Shown piece after piece: positions 3,565 through 20,175 of a stretch of DNA of 42,996 bases. How positions within the stretch are numbered: position 1 is the first letter of the stretch; every line of letters starts with the position of its first letter. This DNA is from a virus. The notes beneath the pieces are model-generated. The model made no database searches. It worked only from the letters and a program-made list of their open reading frames with translations, and had not been told where the DNA came from. Made by a program: the position numbers and the translations under genes. Location of the stretch: IMG/VR virus record IMGVR_UViG_3300025115_000024, positions 1 through 42,996 of that record; one strand, written 5' to 3'.

Positions 3565-4412
3565 TAGTAGTTCTCCTCATAATTATCTTTATTAGAGATT
3601 GCTGTTGCCATAATTCCTTCTAACTCTGAATCAGTTAGACTGAATGACTTTTGAGTGTCAGTTATCTCATTCTCAATATCTCTTCTTATTTTATTAGTGA
3701 GAATTCTAACATAGTCCTTAAAAGAATCATCAAGATGCCAAGTCATCACAGCATCCTGTCGCTCTCTCTGAAGACTCTTGATATATAAATCTTCTTTATC
3801 AGCACTGTTACTCTTACTTGATATTTTTTTAATTTTATCATTGCTTAGTGTCATGCTATTAATGAAGGTAAGAAGACATGACATATACAACCTCTTGCTC
3901 ACTAATATGTCATTTTTATATGGTGTATCTTTTATTCTATTTCTTATAATTCCTGGAAGTATTTTAAGTGTGTCAAATACTGCCTCTACAAGTCCTTGTG
4001 AATAATCTTTTTGAATGTATTGTTTTGTCATATTCACAAGATTTTCCATTTGACCTTCATCAGCATAGTTATATGTCTGAGCAAAGTTTTCTCTTTGATA
4101 ATCAACCTTAAGAGGATAAATGGTTGCCTTAGTATAGTTTAGTATTGATTTAATTTTCTTCTCAGGAAGTGTGTCAGCACATGTGTCTTTTGAAGGATAT
4201 CTAAGATAAAGTCTTGATGATGAATACAGTGCAAAGATGTCATAATCATCAAAGTATTTGAAGTATCTTCCCTTACTGGCCAGCATGTAACAAATGTGAT
4301 ACAGATACTGATAAAGAATGTTATCATCTCTATCTGCTTTATAGATATTTGCATCGAAATATATGCACATATCTGTATACTTCATGTTTGGTTTCTTGTA
4401 TGTCATTCCCAT
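3564..4412 (-). CDS. Unknown phage protein, 282 aa
   Basis: I do not recognise a named family. The N-terminal half is rich in aromatic residues (CIYFDANIYK, YQYLYHICYMLASKGRYFKYF, YDIFALYSSSRLYLRY) and is predicted helical; the C-terminal half is polar and helical, ending with DSELEGIMATAISNKDNYEENY. The compact aromatic helices resemble the core of sigma-like or RNA-polymerase-associated phage factors, but no diagnostic motif is visible. The start overlaps the sbcC-like stop as TAATG and lacks a strong ribosome site, so it is probably coupled. It is soluble, with no signal peptide or membrane segment. Confidence 0.65.
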   Translation of the reverse strand: MGMTYKKPNMKYTDMCIYFDANIYKADRDDNILYQYLYHICYMLASKGRYFKYFDDYDIFALYSSSRLYLRYPSKDTCADTLPEKKIKSILNYTKATIYPLKVDYQRENFAQTYNYADEGQMENLVNMTKQYIQKDYSQGLVEAVFDTLKILPGIIRNRIKDTPYKNDILVSKRLYMSCLLTFINSMTLSNDKIKKISSKSNSADKEDLYIKSLQRERQDAVMTWHLDDSFKDYVRILTNKIRRDIENEITDTQKSFSLTDSELEGIMATAISNKDNYEENY

Positions 4413-6295
4413 TATTTGATTTTACTCACTCCCTTCTCATCTTTTTCTACATTGATTTCACCTTCAAATAGACCTTTAAGCAGTTCAGTGTGATGAGTGA
4501 TGATAAATACACTTTCAACATCTGTGAGTCTGTTAGAGATTAGATTGATGACCTTGTCACATCCTTTTGCATCAAGATTATCTGTAATCTCATCAAGAAC
4601 TAGAATGTTACTTGAGAAGTTTAGATATTGACACAACATGTCTCTAATTGAGAATTGAATGATTAAGTCTACCTTTTGCTTTTCTCCACCACTTAAGTTT
4701 TCATAATCTTTTCCACAGTATGAAATATCAATGCTGTTTCCATTTAACTTAAACTCAATCTCATTGGTCTCAAATACATAAGAGCAATATTCCTTTGCTT
4801 TAACATTAATGAAATCAATAACATGTGTCAATAAAAAGCCTCTGAAGTCTCTCTTGACTAATGAATTCATTTTGTCCACAGCAATAATATGAGAGTTCAA
4901 TATATCACTCTCTTTATTAATATACAATATTTTATTCTTGACAGAACTTATTGACTCTTGAATTGACTTAATTTTATTCTCAATTTGTTTTTTATTAACT
5001 TCAAAATTACTCTTATTGTTCTTTAGTTGTAAAATCTCAGACATAAGAGTGTTCTTTTCTCTTGTTAATGAATTGATTGTATTGGTAATTGTTGTAATGC
5101 TATTTCTACTTGCTGTCAAGGTATCTCTTAATGATGTCTCACTTTGTGCATATCTTGTGTTAATCTCATTGACTGCACTGTTATAGACAGTTGTTAAATC
5201 TCTTTCCTTTGCTCTTTCCTCTTCCTGTTGCTTAATAAGATTTGCAAGAGTTGTCTTCATATCAGTTGTATCAGACTTATGAACATGTGGAAGTTTTTGA
5301 CCGCAGGTTGGACATACATCTTTAATAGAGTCAAGTTTTAAAATCTCATTTCTTAAATGAGCCTGCTCTGATTCTATTTTTGTAATACTAACTCTTACAT
5401 TAGAAACATTTGTATTGTAGGAATCTTTTAATGATGAGATTTCACTTGATTTAAGATTTACTGTGTTTAGTAATGACGCATTAATTTCTAACTGCTTTTT
5501 ATTTTCTGCACTAAGTTCATTTCCTATATGTTCACTATTTTCATCAATTTTGTGAATTTGAGTCTCCTTAGTTAGAATGTCACCATCAAAATTAGGCATA
5601 ATCAAGTAGTCAGATAATTTAGCATTCTCTTTATTCAATTCCTCAGTATACATCTTTTGCTGAGTATTTGCTTGAAGTAGGTCATCTTCAAGTGTTCTTT
5701 TGACTGTTGCAAGTTCTCCACTTCTCTTAGAAATTCTTGCTTTAATGTCTTCAATCATGAAATCAGATTTAGACAGTTTCTCAAGAACTTCTTTACGACC
5801 CAAGGGAGTATTATTTGTAAATCTATGAGGTAGTCCTTGACCTAGAATAATGACACTGCCAATTAGAGATGATGTCATGTCAGGAATATACTGCTCTAAA
5901 AGTGCTTCAGACTTTCTTACACCATCACCTGACCTGTCTTCTCCATTGATAAATATCTTTAGGTCTGCACCTTTTTTACCATTGTAGTCTTTGTATCTGA
6001 TGATTCTATACTCATTCTCATCAATTCTAAATGTCAATTCAACAAAACAGCCTTCATTGACAAAGTTGATGTTGCAGATGTTACTGCTAAGACCTTGAAT
6101 TGTTTCACCTGTAAGTGCCCATGAAATAGCACTCCATATTGAAGACTTTCCAGAGCCATTACTCAGTGCGCCATCTTTGGGATTCTTATTTATTCCTGAT
6201 ACAAGAACATATCCTTTATTGCGAAAACTTAGTTCTGCATCTCCAAAACTAAGAAAATTATGAATCTTTATTTTTTCAAATACAATGTTTGCCAT
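4412..6295 (-). CDS. SbcC/Rad50/gp46-type recombination ATPase
   Basis: This 627-aa protein is the ATPase half of an SbcCD (Rad50-Mre11, T4 gp46-gp47) complex that processes DNA ends for recombination-dependent replication. It has an N-terminal Walker A (SNGSGKSS, K50), a long coiled coil broken by a zinc hook CPTCGQKL near residue 320, and a C-terminal half with the ABC signature LSGGEKQKVDL and Walker B ILVLDEITDNLD. The coiled coils are short compared with bacterial SbcC (about 1000 aa), close to the T4 gp46 size. It is TAATG-coupled to its nuclease partner upstream and has AAGGTGG before the start. Confidence 0.95.
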   Translation of the reverse strand: MANIVFEKIKIHNFLSFGDAELSFRNKGYVLVSGINKNPKDGALSNGSGKSSIWSAISWALTGETIQGLSSNICNINFVNEGCFVELTFRIDENEYRIIRYKDYNGKKGADLKIFINGEDRSGDGVRKSEALLEQYIPDMTSSLIGSVIILGQGLPHRFTNNTPLGRKEVLEKLSKSDFMIEDIKARISKRSGELATVKRTLEDDLLQANTQQKMYTEELNKENAKLSDYLIMPNFDGDILTKETQIHKIDENSEHIGNELSAENKKQLEINASLLNTVNLKSSEISSLKDSYNTNVSNVRVSITKIESEQAHLRNEILKLDSIKDVCPTCGQKLPHVHKSDTTDMKTTLANLIKQQEEERAKERDLTTVYNSAVNEINTRYAQSETSLRDTLTASRNSITTITNTINSLTREKNTLMSEILQLKNNKSNFEVNKKQIENKIKSIQESISSVKNKILYINKESDILNSHIIAVDKMNSLVKRDFRGFLLTHVIDFINVKAKEYCSYVFETNEIEFKLNGNSIDISYCGKDYENLSGGEKQKVDLIIQFSIRDMLCQYLNFSSNILVLDEITDNLDAKGCDKVINLISNRLTDVESVFIITHHTELLKGLFEGEINVEKDEKGVSKIK

Positions 6296-8579: not shown

Positions 8580-9461
8580 TCAAAGAATATTAATTAACAG
8601 ATAGTCAATAATCTTGTCATTGGGAAGATTGCCACTCTTTAATTGATAATCAACAAGTGTAATCATGTCAAATATCTTTATTAGTTCTGTGTTAGTGAAC
8701 TTTCCTAGATTATATTTGATTGCACTAAATTGTTTTGGATTCATTCCTAGAGATTCTGCGGTTGCATTAGCAGACATTTGAATATCTAGAATATTCTTAA
8801 ATGACTTGTAAAGAATTGAGACAACACCCATGGGTTCTACATCTATTGTTTCAATTGTTTCTAAGATGTTTTTTGCTGTCTTAATATCTCTCTTTGTAAT
8901 TGCATTTGTGAAGTTGAAGATAGTGCTAGAATTTAAATCACCATAAGCATCTTCTTTGTTAAGTAAACTAAATATTTGTCCCTGGTCTTTCTTATTAAAT
9001 ATTTTAATTTTATCAACTTCATTTGATAGTCTGTAAATATCTTTAGCAACATCACTGAGCCAGTTTATCTCTTCATTTGACAGTCCAGGAAGATTCTTTG
9101 CTGTGTAGGCTCTAATTTGCCATTGTTGTAGTTTTGGTATCTCAATTACATATTGCTTCATACCTTCAAGAACATCTACATCAATTGATTTGCATATGAC
9201 AATCTTATTGTTTAATGAATCAGACCTAAATTGTTTATCAATCTTGTCAATATTCATTACATACAGACTATCATCTTCACCAAAAATGTCAGATGTGATA
9301 TCATCAAGTGATTCTACATACACAATAGGCTTTTTTTTAAACTCACTGATTGCCTCAACATATTGTCTAGCAATAAATGGAAAGTCAGAATATTTTAAAA
9401 TGAGAAAAGAATCATTAAGAGTTTTATCTTCAATGTTCTTCTTTAATTCAATAATATTCAT
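8580..9461 (-). CDS. Clamp loader delta subunit (HolA-like)
   Basis: This 293-aa protein matches the bacterial delta subunit, the wrench that opens the sliding clamp. Domain I contains DDITSDIFGEDDSLYVMNID; the Ile59-Phe60 pair sits where E. coli delta has its Leu-Phe hydrophobic wedge that inserts into beta. The C-terminal collar domain has the typical pattern ending LVDYQLKSGNLPNDKIIDYL. It has no Walker motifs, as usual for delta. The start at 9461 overlaps the delta' stop as ATGA and has AAGGAG ten bases upstream; an ATG seven codons earlier contains that site and is less likely. Length fits, slightly below the 330-340 aa of bacterial delta. Confidence 0.85.
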   Translation of the reverse strand: MNIIELKKNIEDKTLNDSFLILKYSDFPFIARQYVEAISEFKKKPIVYVESLDDITSDIFGEDDSLYVMNIDKIDKQFRSDSLNNKIVICKSIDVDVLEGMKQYVIEIPKLQQWQIRAYTAKNLPGLSNEEINWLSDVAKDIYRLSNEVDKIKIFNKKDQGQIFSLLNKEDAYGDLNSSTIFNFTNAITKRDIKTAKNILETIETIDVEPMGVVSILYKSFKNILDIQMSANATAESLGMNPKQFSAIKYNLGKFTNTELIKIFDMITLVDYQLKSGNLPNDKIIDYLLINIL

Positions 9462-10258
9462 TGTGTTCTCACTCCTTGCCAAAGTGCTGATAAGTAGTTC
9501 TCAACAAGATGCTTTCTATTGAGTCTTTTGTCACGCATCTTTTTAACATATTCAACAGTTATATTATACAAGATTAAAATCTTCTTATCATTAGTTGTTT
9601 TAAATTCATTCAACATGACATGAGTTAGCATATTGAAGAAAAGTTCAACATCAAACTTATTGAACTCATCTTTGTAGTTAAGTTTGTCTGAAATGGACAG
9701 TGTATTAGGATATGATGCTATAGAAGTCTTCTGAACCATTTTGGTGCATAAGGTGTGTAAGTCTGATAGATTTATCATTGTCAGTGCTTTAAGTTGACCA
9801 GGAGTCAGGCAAACACTCAATGCGAGTTCTTTATCAACATTGATGTCTACAAACTGTTCCAACACGCTTCTTGAGTATTGTTCCATTTCAAAAATAATGC
9901 ATCTATTCATGATTGTAGGCAACAAATTAACTCTGTCTTCTGCAAGAATAATAATGAACGAATATTCAGAAGGCTCCTCTAGAAATTTTAGAATCATATT
10001 TTGTTTTCTATCATCAATCTTAGATGCATCAATTACATAAAGAGATGGAGTAACTCTTGCTGAGATATTGTTGATGAACTCTTGAGATATTTGTTCTGTA
10101 ATGTCTATTAACTCAAGTTTGAATTTGTCTGCAATATATGAAGACATTAAATGTTTACCTGAGCCAGATGCGCCAAGCATAATAACTGATTTTGGATATG
10201 TTTGATATGTATAAGAATTGATTTTAGATAATAATTTTTCTTGACCTAATATTTTCAT
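9458..10258 (-). CDS. Clamp loader delta' subunit (HolB-like), ATPase-degenerate
   Basis: A 266-aa AAA+ clamp-loader subunit. The P-loop reads GASGSGKH, with His where Ser/Thr should bind Mg, and the Walker B region is LYVIDASKID without the usual catalytic Glu. This fits delta', the non-hydrolysing stator. The arginine-finger motif normally written SRC appears as NRC in PTIMNRCIIF, so it can still act in trans on DnaX. The ATG at 10258 has TAGAGG upstream; an in-frame GTG two codons earlier is less likely. It follows the dnaX-like stop by a few bases and overlaps the delta gene by four. Confidence 0.85.
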   Translation of the reverse strand: MKILGQEKLLSKINSYTYQTYPKSVIMLGASGSGKHLMSSYIADKFKLELIDITEQISQEFINNISARVTPSLYVIDASKIDDRKQNMILKFLEEPSEYSFIIILAEDRVNLLPTIMNRCIIFEMEQYSRSVLEQFVDINVDKELALSVCLTPGQLKALTMINLSDLHTLCTKMVQKTSIASYPNTLSISDKLNYKDEFNKFDVELFFNMLTHVMLNEFKTTNDKKILILYNITVEYVKKMRDKRLNRKHLVENYLSALWQGVRTQ

Positions 10259-10266
10259 ATGCACCT

Positions 10267-11280
10267 CTATCTACAAAGTTGAAGTAACATAATTTCAATG
10301 GTTGTCTTCATATTTGAATCATATTTAATTGTATTCTTAATGTTTAATACCTTATCAGTTAAGTTGTTAAAATAAGCACGATTATTCTCAATGCCTACAC
10401 AGAACTTCAAATCTTCTTCCATTGACAATGGTATCATGGTCACAGACATATCTTTGAATAGACAGTATTTTGCAAGGTCTAAGGAGAAGTTTAGATATTG
10501 TTCTACAAACAGTTTCAAGTCATTTCCTGAATTATAAAATGAATTGATAAGATTGATAACAATTTGTTCTTGACCATCAATGATTGCATTTGTCAATTTG
10601 AAGAATGAATCATAAGAGTAGTTACCAAGTGCCTCTAGAACATTTTGAATTGATATATCAGTTGAGTATCCACTACACTTGTCAAGCATTGCCAAAGCAT
10701 CACGCATGCCACCAGAACTGATTTTAGAGATGTAGTCAATACTTTCTTCATAGTTAATGTAATTCTCTCTTAAACAGACAAAACGAAGTCTTTCTTTAAT
10801 CTCTTGAGTATTAACTTTAGTTAGATTGAATCTTTGAACTCTATTTAAAATAGTTGCAGGAATCTTTTGAGCATCAGTTGTGCAAAACATAAAGATTGTA
10901 TACATAGGCGGTTCTTCAAGAACTTTTAAAAATGCATTCCAACCTGCTGTTGTAATCATATGACACTCATCAACAATGTAGATTTTATATGTAGAATCAA
11001 GAGAGCGTTCAACTGCACCTTGAATAATCATTTTAACATTATCAACACCATTGTTTGACGCACCATCAATTTCAATTGGGAAGCCTTGATATTGATTAAT
11101 CTCATTAGCAAAAATTCTAGCGAGAGTAGTTTTACCTGTTCCACTAGGTCCACTAAAAAGATAAACATTCTTGAACTGCTTGAGTTCAAGTTGTCTCATT
11201 AGAATTTTCTTAATTGATAATTGTGAGCAAACTTCTGAGAAAGTCTGTGGTCTATATTTTACTGCTAATGTTTCATTCAT
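10267..11280 (-). CDS. dnaX: Clamp loader ATPase (DnaX gamma-like)
   Basis: A 337-aa AAA+ protein that opens with the DnaX hallmark LAVKYRPQTFSEV. Walker A is SGPSGTGKTT, Walker B/DExx is IYIVDECHM, sensor 1 lies in FCTTDAQKIP, and the arginine-finger segment is ILNRVQRF. The four-Cys zinc module that bacterial DnaX carries between Walker A and B is absent. The protein stops after the collar domain, so it corresponds to a gamma-type subunit without the tau tail that contacts helicase and polymerase. It is the driver ATPase of the loader, with delta' and delta encoded directly downstream. AAGGAG lies nine bases before the ATG. Confidence 0.93.
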   Translation of the reverse strand: MNETLAVKYRPQTFSEVCSQLSIKKILMRQLELKQFKNVYLFSGPSGTGKTTLARIFANEINQYQGFPIEIDGASNNGVDNVKMIIQGAVERSLDSTYKIYIVDECHMITTAGWNAFLKVLEEPPMYTIFMFCTTDAQKIPATILNRVQRFNLTKVNTQEIKERLRFVCLRENYINYEESIDYISKISSGGMRDALAMLDKCSGYSTDISIQNVLEALGNYSYDSFFKLTNAIIDGQEQIVINLINSFYNSGNDLKLFVEQYLNFSLDLAKYCLFKDMSVTMIPLSMEEDLKFCVGIENNRAYFNNLTDKVLNIKNTIKYDSNMKTTIEIMLLQLCR

Positions 11281-13287: not shown

Positions 13288-13676
13288 TTAGAATTTTCTT
13301 CATTCTGTTTGTTTTTTATTTCTTCTAGAATTCTTTGAGACTCTGCCTTCACAACTTCCTCATAAGAGAAGTATTTATATCTTATATCATTCACAGATAC
13401 TTTGCCTCTGAGAAAAACATAGTTGTGCTTAGGATTAACAACTTCTAAATATTTACCCCATGAAGATTGATTTTCTGAATATTCATGAACACTGCACCAC
13501 ATCTTGTAGTGTTCTGAGTGTCTTAGCATCATGTAGTTACTATAAACTATGATGAGATTTCTCTTCTTTTTAAAGTAACAATCAGCAATGTTTCCTTCTT
13601 CATCAACTTCTCTTAGAATATATACTGTTCCAAGTTTTCTTGCTAACTTTGATTTAATCCAGTCAATAATTTTCAT
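13284..13676 (-). CDS. Unknown protein, 130 aa
   Basis: A 130-aa protein with a basic N-terminus (MKIIDWIKSKLARKLG), several aromatic strand-like segments (VYILREVDEEGNIADCYF, YKYFSYEEVV) and a charged helical tail. No known motif is visible. It overlaps the end of the upstream nuclease gene by four bases and has GAGGAAAACAA before the ATG. Its TGA stop is shared with the -35 element of promoter P2. Confidence 0.65.
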   Translation of the reverse strand: MKIIDWIKSKLARKLGTVYILREVDEEGNIADCYFKKKRNLIIVYSNYMMLRHSEHYKMWCSVHEYSENQSSWGKYLEVVNPKHNYVFLRGKVSVNDIRYKYFSYEEVVKAESQRILEEIKNKQNEENSN

Positions 13677-14026
13677 TTGTTTTCCTCACTCAATTTCTCA
13701 ACTAAGAATCTCATTAGTTTAGAATCAATTACAAAGTAGTTAGGCTGATTTGGACCGAAATTAAAGGCAATGACACCACTTGAAAGTCTTTGAGAAAACT
13801 TTTCTTGATTGTTCTTTTCAATCCAATCCTTCTTAATTGATATAGAGTCTTTGTCACTCAACACAGTTTTACATTCAATAAGAAGTGATGCGTCATGTTG
13901 AACAACATCACCCTTACGAAACTTACCACTTCCAGAACTTGACTGTTGCTGAGCATTTAATAGTTTGCATACTGACTTTTCATGAATGTCTGAGAAGTAT
14001 CGTGTTGACTCTTTATTTACTGACAT
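13673..14026 (-). CDS. PD-(D/E)XK nuclease (Hjc/resolvase-like)
   Basis: A 117-aa protein with a compact PD-(D/E)XK core: a helix with E16, then a Ser/Gly loop (SSSGSGKFRKGD) supplying D40, then LLIECK with E51 and K53, followed by a helix (KKDWIEKNNQEKF) and a strand. This is the arrangement of small archaeal-type Holliday junction resolvases and related phage nucleases. It is a second nuclease of this fold in the window, unlike the RecU-type one at 17305. It overlaps the previous gene by 14 bases. Branched DNA as the substrate is an inference. Confidence 0.75.
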   Translation of the reverse strand: MSVNKESTRYFSDIHEKSVCKLLNAQQQSSSGSGKFRKGDVVQHDASLLIECKTVLSDKDSISIKKDWIEKNNQEKFSQRLSSGVIAFNFGPNQPNYFVIDSKLMRFLVEKLSEENK

Positions 14027-15134: not shown

Positions 15135-16307
15135 CTATTCTGCCTCTTTTTGAAGGTCAATTCCAAATCTTTCTTCAATACTTGTGTTTAACATTTTTTC
15201 AAATGCAACAATGTTTGCGTCTTCTTTAATTCTTAATTTGTCATAGACCTTGGTATAAAGTTTCTTCCAAATATCAGGATTTGCATCAAAGAATGGACGA
15301 AGATTCTTTCTACCTCTGATTTTAATATCTTTACCATTAACATCTTTCATTACTTCACCAGTATCTGGGTCTAAGATGAGATAACTGCCTTGAACACTAT
15401 TATCAATGAATCCAAAATGAGTTGCAACATCGAGAGTATCCTCAAGAATATCAACACCTCTGTCATAATTAAGATGCATATAACCTAATTTTCTATCCCA
15501 CTTACAAACTTTTGTTTTAAGAACTGCAACTTCAATTAGATTTCCTGCGGGGGAGTCAGCATTCTTTGTTAGTTTATTTCCATCTTCATCAAAGAATTCT
15601 CCTCTTTTAAACATGAGACGAACTGAGCATTGATGCTTCCAAGCACGACCACCTGGAGTAACCAAGAAGTCCCCATAACCACTCACGTTTTCTCTGACTT
15701 GATTGATTCCAATAAGAGTTGCCTTATATTTTCGCAATACTCCTACAATTGTGTTTGCAAATCGAGTTAGAGATGCCGCCACACCCCCCATTTGTTTCTT
15801 TTCCATGGACTCTTCAGCAATTTGTTGTGGAACTAATGTCGCAATTGAGTCAAAAACAAGAAGACCAATCTCACCTGTCTTTAACATACTGATTGCCATG
15901 TCAAAGATTTGTTCCGCACTTTGTGCCTCTGGACGAATCAAGATTGTTGACACTTTTGCATTTGCACTCATGTCATATCCCATTTTCTTTGCCCAGATTG
16001 GGTCAGCAGTTCCTTCATTGTCAAGATAAACAATTGCTCGTGGCTTATCAGAATTTCTCTTAATCTCTTCTCTTTGATAAGACGCCGCTGTTAAGAAGGC
16101 GGTTGTTGTTTTTCCACTTGATTCCGGTCCACTGAACTCAACCATACGACCTTCAGGAATACCTCCATAAATGCAAAAATCAAATGAAGGAGAACCTAGT
16201 GATAGAATGCCATCAACATCTAGTGATTCAACACCAACTTTAACAACACCGTCTCCAAAATCCTTTTTAATTTTCTTTAATACATCAGATAATGTTAGTT
16301 CAGCCAT
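15135..16307 (-). CDS. recA: RecA-family recombinase
   Basis: A 390-aa strand-exchange ATPase. Walker A is GPESSGKTT (60-68), Walker B is LLVFDSIA, the L2-region equivalent follows GINQVRENVSGYGD, and the ssDNA-contact segment TPGGRAWKHQ is present. It is closer to bacterial RecA than to T4 UvsX in the QMGGVAASLTRF and INQVREN segments. Its acidic C-terminal tail is short. It should pair the ends made by the SbcCD-like complex and work with the gp32-type SSB and the two resolvases. GAAAGGAAAAAATT precedes the ATG. Confidence 0.95.
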   Translation of the reverse strand: MAELTLSDVLKKIKKDFGDGVVKVGVESLDVDGILSLGSPSFDFCIYGGIPEGRMVEFSGPESSGKTTTAFLTAASYQREEIKRNSDKPRAIVYLDNEGTADPIWAKKMGYDMSANAKVSTILIRPEAQSAEQIFDMAISMLKTGEIGLLVFDSIATLVPQQIAEESMEKKQMGGVAASLTRFANTIVGVLRKYKATLIGINQVRENVSGYGDFLVTPGGRAWKHQCSVRLMFKRGEFFDEDGNKLTKNADSPAGNLIEVAVLKTKVCKWDRKLGYMHLNYDRGVDILEDTLDVATHFGFIDNSVQGSYLILDPDTGEVMKDVNGKDIKIRGRKNLRPFFDANPDIWKKLYTKVYDKLRIKEDANIVAFEKMLNTSIEERFGIDLQKEAE

Positions 16308-17304: not shown

Positions 17305-17778
17305 CTAATTTCCTCCTAACTTTGTGAGAACGCTATAATCACTGTCTAAAAACACACGCTTCTTGACAGATGGTATTGTCACTATATCATACACTTTTTC
17401 TCCTACCATCTTCACATTAATTGACTTTTTTCCATCATTTTTCATCTTCATTACTTCTGTAACAGATATCCATGCAACAGTGTCGTGGTCAACCCACCAC
17501 ACAATAACACCAGGAAATACACCTTTAATGTCTTTGTAATCAACTAATTTTTCAAACTGAGTAAGATTAGTAAATGAAAGAGTGTTTCCATGAATGCTTT
17601 TACATTCAATTAAAAATAAATTTGGATAATTATAGCCAATAAAATCACAGATGTTAGAAGAGTATCCAGCATAATTTGAAACTTGGTCAGGAAGGCGAAG
17701 AAGAAAAGAGGCAGGAACTGTCCTAGCCCAATCTTCACGAAACTTTGCCTCAAATTGTTTTCCTCTATTTACTGCCAT
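17305..17778 (-). CDS. RecU-type Holliday junction resolvase
   Basis: A 157-aa PD-(D/E)XK nuclease. The NRGKQFEAKF start, NICDFIGY (D45), LFLIECKS (E58, K60), the NTLSFTNLTQFEKL segment (Q74) and the downstream VIVWWVDHDTVAWI match the Bacillota RecU family, which takes the place of RuvC. Its product should cleave four-way junctions before packaging. It has CTAAGGAG before the ATG and lies ten bases after the ABC-GNAT gene. The RecU assignment is a main argument for a Bacillota host. Confidence 0.88.
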   Translation of the reverse strand: MAVNRGKQFEAKFREDWARTVPASFLLRLPDQVSNYAGYSSNICDFIGYNYPNLFLIECKSIHGNTLSFTNLTQFEKLVDYKDIKGVFPGVIVWWVDHDTVAWISVTEVMKMKNDGKKSINVKMVGEKVYDIVTIPSVKKRVFLDSDYSVLTKLGGN

Positions 17779-17787
17779 CTTGTCTCC

Positions 17788-19038
17788 TTAGAATAAACTA
17801 GGCTTTACAATAGCATCATCTGTGCTTCTGTCTTTGAAGGTCAAATAATCATACTGTCTGCCGACAACATTTTCACAAGGTGCTATATACTTAAATGAAG
17901 TTGATAATCTTGTTTCATGAACTCTTCTTCCACTTAAAGCACCTGTGTCAGCATGAGACTTTTCTAAGACTCCATCACCTTGCCATCTTTTGCTGTGCCT
18001 CATATAAGCAATCAGTTTGACATGTGATGTTCTAATATAAATAACTCTTTCTTGCTTTGCAAACAAGTCACAAACATACTCAAGCAATTTTACAGCAACT
18101 CCAAGACCTTGATAGTCTGGAAGAACAACAAGTCTGTGAACTCTCCAAGCAGGATGTTTCAGACCTGCAACACCGGGTTGTGGAAGTATAGCACACATTC
18201 CGACAACCTCATCATTTAGATATGCAACAAACATTTTACTTGCAATATTTAAATCTGCACTTAAATAGTGATGTTGTTTAAAAATGTTCCAAATTTCGCG
18301 TTTGTTTTGTTTTTCATAGATTTGTAACTCAAATTTTCGCTGAAGTAACCCCCTTGTGTCATATAGTGCTTCATCATCAAGGTCGATAACATAGTCTGGA
18401 CAAAGCACATCTATGAAATCCTTGTGACAAGACACAAAGACACAACTGTGTAAGTTATTTTTTCTGATGTATTTACTAACTGATTTTGATGTTGACATAG
18501 CAACATTTCTATCAACTGTAGATGTAAACTCATCAATTACACAGCCACTTTTTAGCCTACGGGCCAGGTCAGCACGGAAACCTTCTCCAACGCTGAGAAC
18601 ACTACGAGGTTTGCACCAAGTTGGAATACTGTTTAGTCCAACAGCACCAAGTTTCTCTACTGCTTCATCAGACGATGAAAAGTTAGAGATAATGGCTTTT
18701 GAATTATTCCATTCAATTTTTTCTTCTTCACCAAAGAATTTACTAAAGGTTGATTTACCAGACCCACTAGCCCCTGTGATAACAAGAACTTTAAAGTCAA
18801 GATTCTTAATAATTTCATTTAACTTAAAAGGATAGAACTTAATTTCACCTGTGAAGTCATAATCAAAGAAGTTGTTTGTTTTTAGTGTTGCCTCATCAAG
18901 TTGCACTTTAGATACCAGTGGAGTAGTCTCTCTGTGCAGGTCACAAATCTTAATAATATCTTTCTTGTAATCATCATTTGAGAATAGATTAGTTGAATAG
19001 ATATCAAGACTTGTTTCAATTGGTTGTGTCTTACTCAT
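17788..19038 (-). CDS. ABC-type ATPase fused to GNAT acetyltransferase
   Basis: A 416-aa two-domain protein. Residues 80-225 form an ABC ATPase: Walker A GASGSGKST (89-97), signature LSVGEG (148-153), Walker B CVIDEFTSTVD with D-loop, and the switch H205 in VFVSCHKD. Residues 240-385 contain a GNAT fold, with acetyl-CoA motif A as VHRLVVLPDYQGLGVAVKLL. The combination matches the poorly studied COG2401 type (ABC ATPase plus acetyltransferase). No transmembrane segments or permease neighbours are present, so transport is unlikely. It lies directly after the clamp gene and its last residues are PSLF, a partial clamp-binding-like tail. GAGG precedes the ATG. Confidence 0.88.
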   Translation of the reverse strand: MSKTQPIETSLDIYSTNLFSNDDYKKDIIKICDLHRETTPLVSKVQLDEATLKTNNFFDYDFTGEIKFYPFKLNEIIKNLDFKVLVITGASGSGKSTFSKFFGEEEKIEWNNSKAIISNFSSSDEAVEKLGAVGLNSIPTWCKPRSVLSVGEGFRADLARRLKSGCVIDEFTSTVDRNVAMSTSKSVSKYIRKNNLHSCVFVSCHKDFIDVLCPDYVIDLDDEALYDTRGLLQRKFELQIYEKQNKREIWNIFKQHHYLSADLNIASKMFVAYLNDEVVGMCAILPQPGVAGLKHPAWRVHRLVVLPDYQGLGVAVKLLEYVCDLFAKQERVIYIRTSHVKLIAYMRHSKRWQGDGVLEKSHADTGALSGRRVHETRLSTSFKYIAPCENVVGRQYDYLTFKDRSTDDAIVKPSLF

Positions 19039-19059: not shown

Positions 19060-20175
19060 TTAAGCACTAACAATACATTCTGGTAAAATGTTTTTAATGT
19101 TAGGACGGTCAATAATAATCGCTCTCTTGTTACCAAAATTAAGAGTGATGTATTGGTCATTATTTGTTTCTAGAGTGATTCTGAAGTCATTTGTATCAAG
19201 AACAAACTCATAAGACTCATCAGAATTATAAGCACTTACTGTTGAGATTTGTTCATAGTTATTTCTACGAGTATCATAGATTACAAGACCTTCTCTTGAG
19301 AAATTCATATAGGTATAAAGTGTAACAACATTTGTCTTATCAAACAATGATAGACGATTGATTGCATCCAATACTGCTCTTTTTTCAACTACAACACTGC
19401 GAGCAAATTGTGAAGAAGCAAGACCACGAATTGCATCAACAGGAACACTGTTAATCAATGAACTGTCTGATGATAGAATGGTTGTAATCTCAACATCTTT
19501 GTCTTTGAAACGAGCCTTTGTCTGAATAGTGTTATTTGATGTCACATCAGCCCCAAGAGTAAACTCAACTTCATCAGAAAGAAATAGTTTGAATAACTTA
19601 ACAATCTTCTCAGTTAGAAGTAGTTTGATTGGTTTTTGAAGAGTGAAAGAGTTTACACACGCACCATTAGTAAATGTGATTGCACCTTTCTCATCAATAT
19701 AAAACATTTTTTGAACAATCTTCTTGATTCCACTCTTTTGAAGTTCTTTACTGTTGAACTTTAAAACACTTTGAAGAATCTCATTTGAAATAGTGAAATT
19801 GCTTGTGACTTCACCAATATTAATCTTTGGCAACTGAACAAGTTTGTCATGTTCAAAAATCAAAGGAATTCTGTAATTACCATTTGATTTGATGACAAGT
19901 GAATTGTCTTTGATTGTCATTTGCATGTCTGCTGTAGTAAGTTTGGAAATGAGATTTAAAAATAGTGACGCATTTACAACAGCATGAAACTCACTATCAT
20001 CATCAACATCAATAGTCACCGTTACATAATACTCATTGTTTGTAACATTAAGATGAAGTTTCTTGTTAATTGTCTCCAGTTCTAGAGTTTCACTAACTAA
20101 TACAACGCCAGACGAATCAACTGCCTCTAAAATCTTCTTGCATACTTCTTGAAACTGAGTTACTTTTATAATCAT
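19060..20175 (-). CDS. dnaN: Beta sliding clamp (DnaN-like)
   Basis: A 371-aa protein, the length of three-domain bacterial beta clamps (about 366-380 aa) rather than the 228-aa T4 gp45. The pattern MIIKVTQFQEVCKKILEAVD, AVVNASLFLNLISKL, NSLVIKSNGNYRIPL and the C-terminal strand run (YITLNFGNKRAIIIDRP) fits the DnaN domain triplets. It should form a dimeric ring that keeps the phage PolA on template and be loaded by the DnaX/delta'/delta proteins. It is the first gene behind promoter P3 and has GAAAGGAAC before the ATG. Confidence 0.9.
   Translation of the reverse strand: MIIKVTQFQEVCKKILEAVDSSGVVLVSETLELETINKKLHLNVTNNEYYVTVTIDVDDDSEFHAVVNASLFLNLISKLTTADMQMTIKDNSLVIKSNGNYRIPLIFEHDKLVQLPKINIGEVTSNFTISNEILQSVLKFNSKELQKSGIKKIVQKMFYIDEKGAITFTNGACVNSFTLQKPIKLLLTEKIVKLFKLFLSDEVEFTLGADVTSNNTIQTKARFKDKDVEITTILSSDSSLINSVPVDAIRGLASSQFARSVVVEKRAVLDAINRLSLFDKTNVVTLYTYMNFSREGLVIYDTRRNNYEQISTVSAYNSDESYEFVLDTNDFRITLETNNDQYITLNFGNKRAIIIDRPNIKNILPECIVSA

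Follow-up and report, generated by a model that had tools for sequence, protein, structure and literature searches.

What does a phage protein that fuses an ABC ATPase to a GNAT acyltransferase do beside a gene for a sliding clamp? The question is raised by the gene at positions 17788-19038 of the virus record IMGVR_UViG_3300025115_000024, whose 42,996 nucleotides, the whole stretch of DNA analysed, are called the window here. We propose that the protein is an ATP-dependent DNA-base acyltransferase protecting phage DNA, clamp-tethered in many lytic-phage members and, in prophages, partnered by ParB, an account that we hold to be reasonably probable. The gene, its flanking genes and the motifs of its product are given below; motif conservation refers to an alignment of 62 relatives, and the motifs were re-read from the window coordinates.

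19060..20175, minus strand: phage-encoded beta-type sliding clamp, 21 bases upstream of the ABC–GNAT gene (phrog_947, 2.3e-14; PF00712, 4e-4)
17788..19038, minus strand: ABC ATPase–GNAT fusion, 416 residues, member of PHROG 11143 (profile match, AlphaFold2 model, ribosome-binding site)
18349..18861, minus strand: ABC ATPase domain, about residues 60-230 (invariant ABC motifs; Foldseek matches to ABC nucleotide-binding domains)
18751..18774, minus strand: Walker A, GASGSGKS, residues 89-96 (G89, S91, G92, G94 and K95 invariant in 62 sequences)
18583..18597, minus strand: ABC signature, LSVGE, residues 148-152 (S149 and G151 invariant; L148 and E152 nearly so)
18508..18543, minus strand: Walker B and D-loop, CVIDEFTSTVDR, residues 166-177, with catalytic glutamate E170 (D169 and E170 invariant)
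18418..18429, minus strand: H-loop, CHKD, residues 204-207 (H205 and D207 invariant)
17878..18333, minus strand: GNAT acyltransferase domain, residues 236-387 (PF00583, 9.8e-12; Foldseek match to Naa50, TMt 0.70)
18265..18273, minus strand: HHY motif at the start of the GNAT domain, residues 256-258 (Y258 invariant; H256 and H257 at 90% or more)
18094..18111, minus strand: acyl-CoA pyrophosphate-binding motif, QGLGVA, residues 310-315 (Q310, G311 and G313 invariant)
17791..17877, minus strand: C-terminal tail, residues 388-416, past the conserved fold and mostly predicted to be disordered (pLDDT below 50 at 397-416)
17791..17805, minus strand: KPSLF terminal peptide, candidate divergent clamp-binding motif (aligned with QLSLF of the nearest relative, L016)
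17305..17778, minus strand: RecU-like Holliday junction resolvase, 9 bases downstream of the ABC–GNAT gene (phrog_843, 9.4e-15)
15135-16307: RecA (identified from its sequence, not by profile search)

The list of open reading frames confirms the gene as real: the frame begins with ATG, and an AGAGG ribosome-binding site lies directly 5' of the start codon. The initial annotation had described an ABC ATPase and an acetyltransferase in one protein without a permease, and this description holds. The GNAT domain is significant in Pfam (PF00583, residues 248-337), the acetyl-CoA motif is intact, and the residues that define the ABC and acyl-CoA motifs are invariant or nearly so throughout the alignment. 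The ABC domain is short and too divergent for PF00005, whose match to the window protein (0.012) lies below the cut-off, and every catalytic motif is kept. An AlphaFold2 model is confident (mean pLDDT 87.6, pTM 0.84), with low confidence at residues 1-18 and 397-416. In Foldseek searches with this model, ABC nucleotide-binding domains and GNATs were matched separately, and in the viral library a homologue from Leptospira phage LE4 was matched over the full length.

What does the GNAT domain acylate? GNAT enzymes more often act on proteins or small molecules, which counts against a DNA substrate, and the nearest solved GNAT folds are protein N-terminal acetyltransferases, with Naa50 at the TMt given above. 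The phage GNAT Rac acetylates host RNA polymerase (PMC7824862). The window protein could likewise be a protein acetyltransferase, regulated by its ABC domain and delivered by its tail to a target at the fork that belongs to the replisome or the host (clamp, polymerase or RNA polymerase), but such an enzyme would leave unexplained both the invariant ABC ATPase and the Mom, ParB-like, terminase and DNA methylase genes that neighbour its relatives; we consider it unlikely. RNA offers another conceivable substrate. TmcA, an ATP-dependent GNAT that acetylates the wobble cytidine of tRNA-Met, is among the Foldseek matches (2zpa, E 1.3e-5) and provides a precedent for an ATPase and a GNAT acting together on a nucleobase, and phage Jace, which encodes a relative, has tRNAs nearby. 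The ATPase of TmcA is a helicase and not an ABC protein, and clamp tails, ParB and Mom neighbours all favour DNA, so that TmcA-like acylation of tRNA or mRNA retains only a slim chance. An antibiotic or small-molecule acetyltransferase carried as a moron gene seems barely credible: weak matches to aminoglycoside acetyltransferase models were obtained, but all lie far below the cut-off, and neither the conserved ABC partner nor the DNA-metabolism neighbourhoods fit. For the ABC–GNAT protein the preferred reading remains acylation of DNA bases, and the earlier guess of an ATP-dependent modification is likely to be right.

The window protein belongs to a large family. Phage homologues, for which a profile search had been recommended, are united in PHROG 11143; phrog_11143 matches the window protein at 8.6e-93 over residues 43-387, full length through the ABC and then the GNAT domain. 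More than 1,000 relatives were found, in 51 phage records, at least 592 viral stretches and at least 500 genome stretches, and the architecture can no longer be called rare, as had been supposed. Scans of the collections used conserved or query-derived patterns and retained the best 80 loci, so that frequencies are those of a sample; among the best 80 genome loci, Planctomycetota predominate. The nearest relative, L016, shares 58% identity, and a collection scan with L016 as the query for nearer relatives returned L016 alone. L015 represents the same phage as the window (100% over 17 kb). Laboratory phages with the gene include Nonlabens phage P12024S (as gp24), Aeromonas phage PX29, Lactococcus phage P335 and Leptospira biflexa phage LE3. 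In streptococcal, lactococcal, oenococcal and other phages the ABC and GNAT proteins are encoded by separate adjacent genes and so probably work as one complex.

Iyer, Aravind and colleagues reportedly predicted in 2013 that systems coupling ABC and GNAT proteins carry out an acyl modification of DNA bases. According to PMC7824862, the 2013 prediction is that of an uncharacterised DNA-base acyl modification made by ABC ATPase-coupled GNATs such as that of Tenacibaculum phage pT24, and pT24 is a direct match of our query (hit H32). The view that the protein represents an undescribed activity is consequently only partly right: the activity of pT24-type systems had been foreseen, though solely as a prediction.

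Genes that neighbour the relatives form the surroundings of DNA-modification systems. A ParB-like gene lies directly upstream in 73 of 219 full-length members, and this is the usual arrangement in prophages and temperate phages, as seen at 67 of 81 genome loci. Among three ParB-like neighbours compared with Pfam ParB_N, one passes the cut-off and two fall below it, and several bear a ParB-like annotation in their records. Terminase-type genes follow downstream in many ParB-adjacent loci. A Mom-like (PF25680) gene cluster is found within a few genes of ABC–GNAT at five non-redundant viral loci, in two of which Mom overlaps the ABC–GNAT gene by 4 bases; overall, a Mom gene occurs in 9 of 44 ABC–GNAT contigs or records and in 0 of 14 control genomes. 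A DNA methylase cluster is likewise present among the neighbours. The co-occurrence of Mom, ParB-like genes beside terminase, and DNA methylase backs the prediction of DNA-base acylation. Homology between the GNAT domain and Mom was considered and rejected, as profile comparison aligned only a short HHY/HY stretch (Prob 2.7, P 0.017).

Two further gene associations may bear on the acyl group. In one clade of the ParB type, a gene with a formyltransferase-like domain (PF00551) follows ABC–GNAT (L204:8971-9492, L013:5897-6514, L014:1823-2473 and L194:9038-9685), which perhaps points to the nature of the acyl group or to a second step. In phage Jace, a gene resembling CoA-transferase family III (L007:6322-7005) closely follows both ABC–GNAT and an 'aspartate decarboxylase' gene, and may provide an unusual acyl-CoA supply.

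How closely is the family linked to replication? In the window, the flanking clamp, RecU-like nuclease and RecA genes are all as initially described, and the RecU-like resolvase and ABC–GNAT are likely to share an operon. Across the family this neighbourhood is not kept: a beta-type clamp is encoded in 4 of 46 relative-bearing contigs or records, and adjacency to a clamp gene was rejected as a family trait on this count. Clamp gene and ABC–GNAT are close together in the window and are separated by about 1.7 kb in L017 and about 0.7 kb in phage EastWest; in L094 and L142 they are far apart. The predicted link to replication rests in the protein's tail and not in gene order.

The window record has further genes of this kind. 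Three consecutive genes at 8580-11280 resemble a phage-encoded clamp loader, to match the phage's own clamp; the first matches phrog_20214 (clamp loader) at 1.7e-9, and the other two are AAA proteins, judged from sequence only. A second Holliday-junction-resolvase-like protein is encoded at 13673-14026 (phrog_2002, 6e-21), besides the RecU-like protein. No ParB-like gene adjoins the ABC–GNAT gene of the window, its upstream neighbour being the clamp, and the Mom profile PF25680 finds no match in the window protein or anywhere in the window record. PADLOC matches for the window protein were set aside as P-loop-only, with no sign of a defence system.

The conserved fold ends near residue 387, and what follows in relatives from lytic phages is either no more than a few residues or a tail some 12-70 residues long. 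Among 99 non-ParB viral members at 80% non-redundancy, the pattern Q..[LMI][FL] occurs in 33 of the 49 tails of at least 12 residues and in none of the 50 shorter ones, with ends such as AQNQISLF, KQMDLF, EQLSLF, EQLTLL and QQESLF. The bacterial clamp-binding consensus is QL[S/D]LF or QxxLF (PMC12309361), and we infer that the tail motif is a sliding-clamp-binding peptide. Control C-termini from open reading frames of the same loci have the motif in 2.3% and its strict form in 2 of 2208, and non-ParB members at 60% non-redundancy have it in 9 of 47 and in 4 of 47, respectively. Many motif-bearing members fall in one clade, so that these counts overstate independence. On a tree built without the tails the motif needs seven changes, at least six of them forced by well-supported branches; it has thus been gained, or gained and lost, repeatedly. 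One apparent case, L105 (…GQNELL), was discarded as a false motif, its glutamine lying at the end of the fold and not in the tail.

Could these tails serve another purpose? ABC–GNAT might act on DNA while its QxxLF tails bind something other than a clamp, or the KPSLF of the window protein might be a functionless chance remnant. Short linear motifs arise easily, the window end is not significant, and few of the contigs or records (the 4 of 46 above) encode a beta-type clamp; among the searched QxxLF-tailed phages, many of them contig fragments, the profile detected no beta-type clamp belonging to the phage. This last result is expected if the host clamp is used, and clamp-less phages can use the host clamp, which binds exactly this motif (PMC12309361). 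The joint occurrence of tail and motif, the repeated changes on the tree and the T4-type epitope carried by the T4-like phage PX29 all speak against non-clamp tails, to which, together with a chance remnant in the window, we assign a small probability. A clamp-binding role for the tails is the interpretation retained here.

Several loci present variations on this theme. L047 has two full-length tandem copies, ending in QQESLF and QGSLF. A GNAT-only paralogue stands directly behind ABC–GNAT in L116 (1653-2258), L124 (7125-7727) and L132 (7119-7712), possibly as a two-subunit variant, and two of the three have clamp-type ends (…DSQFGLF and …NNQISIF). In L016, the upstream protein (5027-5596) has the acidic DDDLPF end typical of SSB and QQDLF, a clamp-type motif, near its C-terminus. 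In L115, both ABC–GNAT (4399-5544, KQISLF) and the adjacent Mom (5577-6224, …DSQFGLF) have clamp-type ends. Ends matching Q..[LMI][FL] are found in 17 of 69 distinct sampled Mom C-termini, and a sizeable group of the Mom proteins at loci L341-L420 (e.g., L374, L386, L397 and L404) shares a conserved tail of the type …YDSGxxVxTQQLLF, which fits QxxLF. Mom may therefore also be clamp-tethered.

The tail motif and the ParB-like neighbour do not occur together. The motif is present in 58 and an adjacent ParB-like gene in 73 of the 219 full-length members, and no member combines them (Fisher p=0.003 at 60% non-redundancy); since the tree is largely divided in the same way, phylogeny explains part of the exclusivity. 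Clamp tail and ParB would be alternative routes to DNA. Neither adaptor is present in roughly half of the non-redundant non-ParB viral members, which are short-tailed and lack both the motif and a ParB neighbour.

In T4-like phages, the clamp-binding epitope has a different form. The C-termini of T4 gp43, gp55 and gp33 are interchangeable clamp-binding epitopes (PMC2988020), and the ABC–GNAT of PX29 ends in SGLDFMFGI, resembling the ASLDFLFG of T4 gp43. Of 2969 control C-termini a single one reaches this score, in a control set that includes the PX29 protein itself; PX29's own gp43, with the end TSLTDLFGDW, matches less well (61 of 2969). The enzyme of VmeM-32 ends in IKDILDI and the gp43 of that phage in LNAVLDI, again weaker (34 of 2969). 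A T4-type polymerase is found in 2 of 21 other relative-bearing contigs, both without a motif-bearing tail, and no further pairs of enzyme and polymerase are therefore available. As cognate controls, the polymerase tails of L299 and L054 gave weak partial matches that are uninformative, and L017 yielded no match.

Does the window protein itself have such a tail? It ends in ...DAIVKPSLF, and the alignment places VKPSLF opposite the EQLSLF of L016. The glutamine is missing from KPSLF, and an equally good score against the consensus is reached by 352 of 2969 control C-termini (about 12%). The initial annotation had likened PSLF to a clamp-binding tail; the likeness stands for the family, many of whose members carry the canonical QxxLF, but the window's own end is weak when taken alone. 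No other convincing KPSLF-like clamp motif was seen among the window proteins. KPSLF could be matched to the divergent beta clamp of the window phage, and we rate the chance that the window protein binds a clamp as about even.

Taken together, we suggest the following mechanism. Powered by ATP, the ABC domain, probably as a head-to-tail dimer, would clasp and distort the DNA and thereby bring a base within reach of the GNAT domain, which would then acylate an exocyclic amine with acyl-CoA as the donor. Through the clamp peptide on its flexible tail, the enzyme would follow the fork and modify each strand as it is newly made. Prophage members, which are tail-less, adjoin a ParB-like protein as the probable alternative adaptor to DNA. 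In a more general form, GNAT-type DNA-base acyltransferases, namely ABC–GNAT and apparently a clade of Mom, would have been made clamp clients repeatedly through a C-terminal peptide matched to the clamp in use (host beta or T4-type gp45), coupling hypermodification to replication, with prophage members relying on a ParB-like partner that is itself possibly a DNA-sliding adaptor; we would put this broader proposal evenly balanced between true and false.

What is the relevance of such a tail? DNA modification by ABC–GNAT is a prediction that has stood since 2013, and a clamp-binding tail would direct attention, on physical grounds, to DNA and to the replication fork. The mark has to be on the viral DNA before host restriction enzymes encounter it, and we speculate that, as a rule, the marking enzyme for this reason travels with the replisome; the family may mark viral DNA while it is being copied. 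A five-residue tail peptide would provide a simple handle on replication-coupled modification.

How does this proposal compare with known systems? The predicted ABC ATPase–GNAT DNA-acyl system shares full-length homology with the window protein; the available part of PMC7824862 mentions neither clamp-binding tails nor ParB exclusivity nor paired tail-bearing Mom genes, and the 2013 work of Iyer and colleagues may already have noted the ParB link or the tails. TmcA, like the enzyme proposed here, joins a P-loop ATPase to a GNAT that acts on a nucleobase, but its ATPase is of the helicase type and its substrate is RNA. The Mom protein of phage Mu (PF25680), a DNA-base modifier of the GNAT superfamily, is a neighbour of ABC–GNAT in several phages, and both families include members with QxxLF C-termini; Mom is without an ABC domain and has no significant profile similarity to the window GNAT. 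A precedent for coupling modification to replication is provided by a methyltransferase encoded on a plasmid, whose partner is DNA polymerase I (PMC7736820). The T4 alpha-glucosyltransferase, a DNA hypermodification enzyme, binds the sliding clamp gp45, and this contact is not the main cause of its dominance, which calls for caution on the importance of a tether (PMC13216743). Its chemistry is that of a glycosyltransferase, and it is a single enzyme, in contrast to a family in which tails have been acquired repeatedly.
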